From Firmicutes bacterium HGW-Firmicutes-15 (GTDB lineage Bacteria; Bacillota; Syntrophomonadia; Syntrophomonadales; Syntrophomonadaceae): a DNA stretch of 64,000 nucleotides. Location of the stretch: positions 1 to 64,000 of the forward strand of contig PHAA01000018.1 in assembly GCA_002840245.1 (NCBI GenBank), read 5' to 3'. The number at the start of each line of letters is the position of its first letter. Positions within the stretch are counted from its first letter, which is position 1. This document shows positions 40,760 to 50,048 of the stretch, one piece after another. A program made the position numbers and the translations under genes. A model generated the notes under the pieces. That model saw only the letters and a list, made by a program, of their open reading frames with translations. It ran no database searches and was not told where the DNA came from.

Positions 40760-40763
40760 ATAG

Positions 40764-41079
40764 TCAGTTTCGCAGTAGACTGATTATATGCAGCAGCAAA
40801 TAAACTGATGACATTCCCCTATAACACTAACCGGGAGAACGGGTTTTTGCTGTTGAGCGAAGTTGGGTTGACAAATTCAGCAATTCTGCCAGCTCCAGGC
40901 TGCTAAGGTGTGGGGACACACCTCCAAGGAGGAATGTCCCCACACCTTAGCTGATGGGAGCATGCAGAATTACTGAATCTGTTATCCCCAGATTACAGTC
41001 AACATCTAACACCCGGTCCCCTTATATCTCAGTGCTTCGGAAGTTTGTTGCGCATAATCCATTAACTGCGAAAGCTGAG
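40764..41079. mobile_element. Foldback element A (MITE-like, about 316 bp)
   Basis: Two diverged inverted arms of about 125 bp (40764-40896 and 40955-41079), with ends TCAGTTTCGCAGT and ACTGCGAAAGCTGAG, around a REP-like hairpin (40903-40950). The same arms occur at 48483-48598 and 49085-49223 in the opposite order. No protein is encoded. It starts 5 bp after the -10 box of the SOS promoter. Flanking duplications of target sequence are not clear. Confidence 0.8.
40903..40950. repeat. REP-like hairpin in the centre of element A
   Basis: CTAAGGTGTGGGGACA (40903-40918) and TGTCCCCACACCTTAG (40935-40950) are perfect 16-bp inverted repeats; inside, CCTCC and GGAGG form a second stem. Similar in layout to the palindrome at 7148-7181. 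Confidence 0.85.
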
Positions 41080-41158
41080 CAATATAAATATGATATACAA
41101 CGGTATAGTATAATAATACCAAGCAATAATAAATTTAGACTTATCCAAAGGAGTAATC

Positions 41159-47838: not shown

Positions 47839-48056
47839 GAGAGAACGATAGACTTGTTCACTATTAATGTTGCTGTGTTTATCTGCGACTATTCGGTCTC
47901 AATCTACAAACTGCAAAAATACAAGAGATTTCCCGGGAAATAAATCGAATTTGAAATGAAAATAATTGGAATTTGATGGGGAAATTGCTTATCATAATAG
48001 TAAGTGTATATTCGAGGGTTGTTTATGCAAATTTATAGTAAGAAGGAGGGGCAATG

Positions 48057-48413
48057 ATGCCTGGTTGGATTTTGCGATGGATATTGAACATACTAGCTAT
48101 CGTGGTTACGGCAAAACTTTTGTCTGGGTTTGAGGTGAACATTTGGGGGGCTATTGTCGGATCCGTGTTCCTTGGGGTTATTAACGCCGTTATACGGCCT
48201 CTGATAATTCTTTTAACCTTACCGTTGAACATTCTTTCTTTAGGTCTTTTTACCTTTGTTATTAATGGATTCATGCTTTACCTTACCGCGGCCACTGTCA
48301 AAGGCTTTGATGTTCAAGGATTCTGGTGGGCCGTCTTAACCTCCATAGTACTCAGCTTAATAAGCCTCGTAATCAGTTTATTCGTGAAGGATACGTATTT
48401 TAAAATGCGATGA
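48057..48413 (+). CDS. Small membrane protein of the phage-holin superfamily IV type (DUF360)
   Basis: 118 aa, four membrane helices. It matches the widespread bacterial family once named for phage holin (RWILNILAIVVTAKLLSGFEV, then VINAVIRPLIILLTLPLNIL). No phage genes surround it and its cellular role is unknown. GGAGG is 7 nt before ATG 48057. A terminator follows. Confidence 0.85.
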   Translation: MPGWILRWILNILAIVVTAKLLSGFEVNIWGAIVGSVFLGVINAVIRPLIILLTLPLNILSLGLFTFVINGFMLYLTAATVKGFDVQGFWWAVLTSIVLSLISLVISLFVKDTYFKMR

Positions 48414-48442: not shown

Positions 48443-48472
48443 AAGCCGGGCATTATAAGCTCGGCTTCTTAT
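48443..48472 (+). terminator. Terminator of the holin-like gene
   Basis: AGCCGGGC (48444-48451), loop ATTATAA shared in part, GCTCGGCT (48459-48466), then TCTTATT. Confidence 0.75.
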
Positions 48473-48569
48473 TAATTCAAGTTACACAGTTAAGTGATAC
48501 TGCGAAGCAAACTTCCTAAGTACTGAGATATAAGGGGGCCGGGATTTGCTGTTGAGCGGAAGCTGGGTG

Positions 48570-48780
48570 GACAAATTCAGCAATTCTGCAAGCTCCGGCT
48601 CCGGAGGCTCGGGCTGTCAACTGCTTGCCAGATGATTTCCAGAGGGTACCCGGCCAACCGCCCATCCGTGGGCGGTGCCCGGCTCGGAACGTCCTGTTCC
48701 TCGCCCTCTTCCAATCATCTGTCTTCGCAGGACAGCACGGCCTCCTGCGCAACGTCGCTTGCACAATTACTAAATTTGTC
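48570..48780 (-). ncRNA. Structured core B1 (candidate RNA or ssDNA fold)
   Basis: Stems seen: a 24-bp A+T-rich base (48570-48593 with 48757-48780); GGAGGC/GCCTCC (48603-48608/48740-48745); GGGCTGTC/GACAGCAC (48611-48618/48731-48738, one mismatch); AGATGATT/AATCATCT (48630-48637/48713-48720); AGAGGG/CCCTCT (48641-48646/48704-48709); CCGCCCA/TGGGCGG (48658-48664/48669-48675); GGAAC/GTTCC (48686-48690/48696-48700). Strand is set by likeness to B2, where mismatches become G-U pairs on the plus strand. Expression is not shown. Confidence 0.5.
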
Positions 48781-48901
48781 AAGACATCTCAACTCTGTAT
48801 AGAAATCGGTTTAAACTAAGCGACTAGAAAACAACGGGGAAAGAGGGACCCCTACAATTCCGTCCCTTTCCAGCCAATATATTTGTAGATTTTATAGCGC
48901 G

Positions 48902-49110
48902 ACAGATTTAGTAATTATGCTGGCGACCTAGCGGAGGAGGCCGTTCTACCCTGCGCAGACTTGTGAGCGGAAGGGGACGAGCGACAGGACGTCGCGAGCC
49001 TGTCATCGACTAGGGATGGGAGATTGGCAGGGTGCCCCTGGAGCTCGCAAGGCAAGCAGTTGGTAGAACGAGCCTCCGGAGATGGGAGCAAGCAGAATTA
49101 CTAAATCTGT
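48902..49110 (+). ncRNA. Structured core B2 (candidate RNA or ssDNA fold)
   Basis: Same fold as B1 with other bases: base arm 48902-48920/49092-49110; GGAGGC/GCCTCC (48936-48941/49072-49077); GTTCTACC/GGTAGAAC (48943-48950/49062-49069); TTGTGAGC/GCTCGCAA (48961-48968/49043-49050, one G-U); AGGGG/CCCCT (48972-48976/49035-49039); GCGAC/GTCGC (48981-48985/48991-48995); CCTGTCA/TGGCAGG (48999-49005/49025-49031, one G-U). Loop AGGAC and linker GGCAAGCAGTTG are identical in B1. No known RNA family recognised. Confidence 0.5.
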
Positions 49111-49241
49111 TAGCCCCAGATCACAATCAACAGCAAAATCCCGTTCCCCCGTCTATCGTTATTGTAGAATGGCATCAGGTATATTTGCTGCTGCGCATAA
49201 TCAGTCAACTGCGAATGTTGAGTTAATAACAAGGAGGAAAA

Positions 49242-50048
49242 ATGTCTATAAAATTAGTTGCACTAGACTTGGATGATACATTGCTCGACACGGGTTTGAA
49301 GATCTCTGAAGATTGTGTGCGGACCATACAGGAAGTCCGTAAACGAGGAGTTAGAGTTACCATTTCTACCGGACGCATGTATAGGTCAGCACTGCCATAT
49401 GCACAACAGTTAGAAATTGACGTGCCTCTGATTACCTACCAGGGCGCCTGGGTGAAAAATTCTTTATCCGGGGAAGTGTTATATTGCAAGCCGGTTCCAA
49501 GAAAGCTGGCGATTGAGGTTATAAAGTATTTTAAGGTCGCAGGGGTTCACTGTCATAGCTATTATAATGACCAACTGGTTATGGAGTCATTGTCAGAGGA
49601 AGGGCGGTTTTATTCTCAATTAGCGGGAGTGGAAGCTGTTTTGGTAGATGATTTGATAGCACAATTGGATACAGGTGAAGCTATGAAAATAATGGCTATT
49701 AGCTATGATGAGAAACAGCTCCTGGATATAGAGAGGAATTTAAAACTAAACTATGGGGATAATTTGCATATTACTCGCTCTAAGCCCTATTTCCTGGAAG
49801 TGATGCATCGGGAAGCCAATAAGGCAAAGGCTTTGGAGGTTATAGCCAGACATTTCGGGATTGGCCGGCAGGAGGTAATGGCCGTAGGGGACAGTTACAA
49901 TGATATAGAGATGATAGAATGGGCCGGTCTGGGAGTTGCTATGGGCAATGCTTTCCAATCGGTAAAAGAGATAGCGGATTTTGTTACTGCCTCCAACGAA
50001 GAGGAAGGTGTGGCTGAAGCTTTGCGAAGGTTTATTATAAATAAATAA
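49242..50048 (+). CDS. Cof-type HAD phosphatase
   Basis: 268 aa. Motif I DLDDTLLD (Asp9 nucleophile in the family pattern), motif II Ser/Thr in ISTGRMY, Lys in NKAKALEVI, motif IV GDSYNDIEMI. The C2-type cap is in the middle (about 85-190). It dephosphorylates sugar phosphates or similar compounds; the substrate is unknown. AAGGAGG is 4 nt before the ATG. Element B ends just upstream, so the leader or promoter of this gene may be shaped by it. Confidence 0.92.
   Translation: MSIKLVALDLDDTLLDTGLKISEDCVRTIQEVRKRGVRVTISTGRMYRSALPYAQQLEIDVPLITYQGAWVKNSLSGEVLYCKPVPRKLAIEVIKYFKVAGVHCHSYYNDQLVMESLSEEGRFYSQLAGVEAVLVDDLIAQLDTGEAMKIMAISYDEKQLLDIERNLKLNYGDNLHITRSKPYFLEVMHREANKAKALEVIARHFGIGRQEVMAVGDSYNDIEMIEWAGLGVAMGNAFQSVKEIADFVTASNEEEGVAEALRRFIINK

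Follow-up and report, generated by a model that had tools for sequence, protein, structure and literature searches.

Element B, which lies in the 64,000 nucleotides of DNA from Firmicutes bacterium HGW-Firmicutes-15 analysed here (the window), is a new form of a known orphan RNA family, with a double core and borne by a transposon. The element is short and non-coding and harbours two copies of a structured RNA back to back. It probably represents a MITE-type transposon of the Syntrophomonadaceae, non-autonomous and with two inverted cores of the TwoAYGGAY type (RF01731). Its relatives show that this RNA was spread through clostridial genomes by transposases that are prone to insertion at hairpins. 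In the literature searched, which covered part of the papers naming the family, no link between TwoAYGGAY and transposons was found.

Layout of element B

The following features were assigned in the window (R1 is the covariance model described below).

About 48474-49224, no strand: element B, the whole double-core MITE-like foldback element, with ends AATTCAAG...GTTGAGTT (by-eye alignment with 7-9 other copies of the same genome)
48444-48466, plus: stem-loop AGCCGGGCATTATAAGCTCGGCT immediately upstream of element B (read from the sequence)
48474-48570, plus: left end region bearing the outer inverted repeat (same ends in further copies of the genome)
48571-48780, minus: core t2, TwoAYGGAY-type RNA (R1, RF01731 alignment, fold z -11.7)
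48663-48670, minus: hairpin loop 2 of t2, CACGGATG, with the AYGGAY loop ACGGAT (sequence, consensus structure)
48690-48696, minus: hairpin loop 1 of t2, CAGGACG (sequence; CA.GGA.G is nearly invariant in alignment A1)
48781-48901, no strand: spacer of about 120 nt between the cores (C72 and C31 have related spacers flanked by these core types)
48902-49110, plus: core t1, TwoAYGGAY-type RNA (R1, fold z -11.2)
48985-48991, plus: hairpin loop 1 of t1, CAGGACG (sequence, consensus structure)
49012-49017, plus: hairpin loop 2 of t1, AGGGAT (sequence, consensus structure)
49111-49224, minus: right end region bearing the outer inverted repeat (same ends in further copies of the genome)
40763-41080, no strand: element A, with ends like those of element B and a small hairpin in place of the cores (perfect 6-bp flanking duplication, AATATA on plus)

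The two inverted 209-nt cores, which share 76% identity, were found where an earlier, sequence-only reading had proposed them. All five stem exchanges listed there are present, the differences between the cores keep the base pairs, and the unpaired parts said to be identical, GGCAAGCAGTTG and the AGGAC loop, are indeed the same in both cores. The same reading had recognised a foldback element, but its limits were drawn too narrowly for the repeated unit of about 48474-49224. Each core alone forms a branched hairpin that is far more stable than shuffled sequence (t1 -114 kcal/mol, shuffled mean -68; t2 -121 kcal/mol, shuffled mean -72), and none of 200 shuffles was as good in either case.

A comparison of the ends by eye gave no clear target duplication at element B. 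The stem-loop upstream of it is probably the terminator of the preceding gene (48054-48413). The following gene (49242-50048), whose product looks like a HAD-type hydrolase when read from its sequence, has its start codon 17 bp past the element.

Affiliation with the TwoAYGGAY family

At its own thresholds, Rfam recognised only tRNA in the whole window. At relaxed thresholds, RF01731 aligned to t2 over positions 1-168 of its 168 (21.2 bits, threshold 43), and t1 had no listed RF01731 match even then; a direct match of the window cores above 43 bits was not obtained. Homologous cores aligned over the full 168 positions as well (G031 32.2 bits, G023 29.5 bits, threshold 43). The genome search with RF01731 revealed above-threshold members in G009 (54.5 bits) and in G017, the latter with at least 22 dispersed matches.

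The covariance model R1 was made from 18 cores, including t1 and t2, none of which was matched by the RF01731 genome search; two homologous cores with sub-threshold RF01731 matches are among them. R1 matches the G009 member L144 with 90.2 bits (E 1.8e-19) and the G017 members L145, L149 and L151 with about 55 bits (L145 E 4e-11). On the window cores, both of them members of the training set, it yields 115.2 bits (E 1.7e-25) for t2 at 48741-48607 and 130 bits (E 4.8e-29) for t1 at 48940-49073. Because R1 finds above-threshold RF01731 members, the window cores represent a divergent branch of TwoAYGGAY, and they belong to a large RNA family that includes the Rfam entry. The full-length alignments and the cross-match of R1 rule out a novel RNA class, and the earlier view of the element as outside the known classes has to be withdrawn. 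No Rfam match to a guide RNA, group II intron or riboswitch was obtained in the element up to E 10 or in 12 related loci up to E 1, and a known guide or intron RNA was rejected for this lack of matches.

The likeness to TwoAYGGAY RNAs comprises the full-length alignment, the two terminal hairpins with A(N)GGAY loops and, in most cores, GA mismatches next to the central stem (GA on both sides in 19 of 23 cores, scored with a loose pattern). The window cores differ in their scores, which in whole numbers are at most 21 bits against the RF01731 threshold of 43, in loop 1, which is usually AGGAY and one base short, and in the arrangement of two cores head to head in a transposon. Loop 2 reads ACGGAT in t2 and AGGGAT in t1, and in both cores loop 1 reads AGGAC and lacks one base; the full AYGGAY form is found in both loops of several relatives.

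Conservation of the structure

Covariation maintains the structure in many families of Clostridia. Among 23 diverse cores, compensatory changes occur at 23 of 29 pairs, 92.9% of the cells pair, and the covariation score is 0.558 (0.198 shuffled; at most 0.13 with slid partners). In 25 further genomes, mostly of other families, double changes were detected at 30 of 31 pairs with a score of 0.929 (0.209 shuffled), in an alignment of loci outside the training alignment that was fitted to the model, which favours pairing. R1 matches were present in 58 of 398 genomes of the phylum, and copy numbers are lower bounds, since no more than eight candidates were scored per genome. G-U cells outnumber A-C cells in the two alignments (28 vs 9 and 13 vs 6; cells not independent), and the excess in the first is not significant when counted by pair position (15 vs 8). 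This excess mildly favours an RNA of the strand as given here.

The element had been described as a foldback whose structure is maintained by compensatory changes. It passed the covariation check very strongly, and the many dispersed core copies expected in related genomes were found. From the overall interpretation, structure, covariation and dispersal can be retained and the position outside known RNA classes cannot. Regarding the two functions considered then, an RNA or a fold used for transposition, the results point to a conserved RNA on a MITE that is moved by IS1182-type transposases.

Mobility of the RNA

Relatives of the cores reside within elements that have inverted-repeat ends and target duplications and for which empty sites exist. 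Syntrophomonas wolfei and its subspecies contain the core within MITEs of about 271 bp, whose inverted-repeat ends are like GATTCTACTGCAAAAA; a perfect 6-bp target duplication is present in 22 of the 37 copies with recognisable ends (1.0 expected), and orthologous sites are occupied in one S. wolfei strain and empty in the other (example CCTGATAATTACAGAT). Inspection by eye showed that each of the six G289 copies examined lies between direct repeats of a stem-loop of the host. These repeats have a length of 23-30 bp and are terminator-like in most copies, and the stem-loop is duplicated as a whole. Three copies in G171 have flanks resembling this pattern, and the copies in G047 sit in a GGACGGTCC palindrome (both by eye). 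Eight near-identical MITE copies of G047 (L263-L270), located in a REP-like GGGGACGGTCC palindrome, indicate recent spread. In the window, a stem-loop stands directly before element B, and element A possesses a perfect 6-bp duplication.

Like REP sequences and other MITEs, the element is a dispersed intergenic palindrome; unlike these bacterial foldback repeats, its palindrome is a multi-branched structure with strong covariation common to bacterial families.

IS1182-type transposases

G289 and S. wolfei contain insertion sequences of the IS1182 family, or similar to it, whose ends are identical or almost identical to those of the MITEs. G289 harbours about 20 near-identical IS1182 transposase genes and three complete IS1182 elements of 1.94 kb with the ends of the MITE and its target habit; MITE positions 1-133 correspond to one end and positions 129-277 to the other. 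The transposase unit between them (ends CAGACTGTGTG) sits in hairpin loop 1 of the RNA with a duplication of GACGT in all four copies examined.

In S. wolfei, the ends of an IS1182 element are those of the G047 MITE. IS1182 transposases of these genomes match NF033551 with 386.6 and 386.9 bits (cut-off 270). A second S. wolfei IS of about 1.92 kb has the ends GATGTCACTGCAAAAA, 6-bp duplications (AATATT, AAGATT, AACAAC) and an IS1182-like transposase, which scores 167 bits and does not reach the cut-off of 270. Its 16-nt end occurs on many elements with a MITE interior and at one end of several core-bearing copies. An autonomous element with the MITE ends of S. wolfei (GRYTCNNCTGC) was sought among 69 such ends, none of which is paired around a transposase gene; the partner of these MITEs is likely an IS with the near-identical end GATGTCACTGC. 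A piecewise search of the window genome, a draft of 84 contigs, gave no partner IS with matching ends. The sole IS1182 transposase relative found there (L324, C20:210809-212221) contains an internal TAG stop.

These elements resemble the known IS1182 family and its MITEs, for example IS1272, in the matching ends found in the relatives and in stem-loop insertion; IS1272, a member of the family, targets stem-loops (PMC5678879). They differ in the fate of the stem-loop, which IS1272 replaces (PMC5678879) and the G289 copies duplicate, in the 6-bp duplications of the S. wolfei MITEs, in the conserved RNA carried by these MITEs, and in the window genome, in which no partner IS was found. An IS1182-type transposase probably moved element B in trans, into or beside hairpins.

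The target choice could also mean that the structure matters as DNA, the palindromes forming hairpins or cruciforms which are recognised or targeted by the transposase and for which the branched fold is kept. Stem-loop targeting by IS1182-type elements (PMC5678879; the G289 flanks) and the IS1182 unit that interrupts the RNA core precisely at loop 1 (four of four copies) agree with such a role. However, MITEs and ISs with the same ends and no core have also been moved (element A, the S. wolfei IS), the conserved loops and internal loops are strand-specific, and G-U prevails over A-C (41 vs 15 in both alignments together; cells not independent), so a role as DNA is considered unlikely.

Position relative to genes

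Another explanation assigns the cores a local function at the 3' ends of mRNAs, as terminators or RNA stabilisers for the upstream gene. It fits the G289 and G171 insertions, which lie within terminators or next to them, the location of element B after a stem-loop, and the intergenic position of the copies, none of 33 being situated in an ORF of at least 200 aa. The orientation to the upstream gene, however, is random (17 of 33), which makes this explanation quite improbable. According to the discovery paper, the TwoAYGGAY motif is probably an RNA and probably not cis-regulatory (PMC2864571). Dispersed copies that show no orientation bias relative to genes agree with this marking; the Rfam label of RF01731, Cis-reg, is contrary to it.

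Further copies in the window genome and a sister species

A second double-core element of the window genome is located on C72, and a double-core element on C31 has two additional inserts in each core, at matching positions. All double copies are ordered t2 (minus), spacer, t1 (plus), if reversal of the whole unit is allowed, and this arrangement is also present in the sister species G006. The recurrence on C72, on C31 and in G006 indicates that the element is an inherited unit. The copy on C26 is a hybrid, in which the left half of t2 continues into the right half of t1. Elements that are shorter and have these ends but no core, element A among them, occur as well.

Hybrids and mirrored inserts (C26, C31) imply that the arms do exchange sequence, and the elements are quasi-palindromes; nevertheless, it is very improbable that template switching or conversion between the arms only mimicked compensatory change and that no selection on structure took place, because many families share one branched structure in which unpaired bases are conserved, and copying between arms would not keep the CA(N)GGANG loops while the stems vary. 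The strong conservation of loops and internal loops speaks against such an origin.

Some further copies are composite. L031, L033 and L035 (C68, C31 and C30 of the window genome, G000) consist of a solo outer palindrome TTCGCAGTTGACTGATTATGCGCAGCA with an unrelated hairpin (GTCATTCTGAACGAAGTGAAGAATCT...) in its loop, that is, of hairpins nested inside hairpins, and L037 (C79, about 102516) is a bare, cargo-free copy of about 50 bp, the outer palindrome alone. A stem-loop insert of about 50 nt (CCTTAATAGCGACCGAAGGGAGCATCAG... or CAACCTTAATAGTGACATCC...) was detected at several different sites within cores, namely in L017 (the C31 element) and in the S. wolfei-type L043, L044, L058, L063 and L108. 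L168 of G017 is a recombinant core with left and right halves of different subtypes, comparable to the C26 copy.

Putative link to CsrA

In both hairpin loops the cores show CA(N)GGANG, a motif shaped like a CsrA site, and in most cores loop 1 lacks one base of the ideal site. Of the 85 unique cores in the family set, 82 have two such motifs, in paired GGA hairpin loops; elsewhere two motifs are present in 18 of 25 cores (shuffled 1.5 and 0.14). Gardner and Eldai proposed that TwoAYGGAY RNAs bind CsrA (PMC4333381). With carrier status counted by hand, the gene csrA occurs in 54 of 58 carriers, including G063 with a marginal match, vs 231 of 340 non-carriers (Fisher 2.8e-5) and by genus in 40 of 43 vs 156 of 224 (p 0.001), an association confounded by ancestry and lifestyle. 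The gene is absent from the carriers G162, G195, G196 and G239, and from G023 (99% completeness).

As in the CsrA-sequestering RNAs of the CsrB/RsmZ type, GGA is placed within paired hairpin loops; in contrast to these, each RNA has two sites, its mobile copies are numerous and dispersed, and its binding is a prediction. A function of the cores as CsrA decoys has slightly less than an even chance. A transcribed core might then present its two GGA hairpin loops to a single CsrA dimer, every insertion would provide one more decoy, and the double-core layout would make the loop pair available on either strand. The transposase mRNA itself was rejected as a CsrA target: the G026 and L325 transposases have no CA(N)GGANG close to their starts, and the one near the G289 transposase start is part of the split RNA core itself.

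Significance for the family and its hosts

With these results TwoAYGGAY, an orphan family since 2010, gains a biological context as transposon cargo in several lineages. Spread by transposons helps to explain its scattered, gene-independent occurrence, the mobile copies provide ample material for covariation work, and the structured RNA is a landing site for the same transposase family that spreads it. More tentatively, the class as a whole could consist of transposon-borne CsrA decoys on IS1182-type elements across Clostridia, either selfish or domesticated. If this is true, a genome would contain dozens of decoy copies, and CsrA regulation of the host would shift as copies come and go. The published idea of a CsrA decoy becomes directly testable in the cultivated S. 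wolfei.
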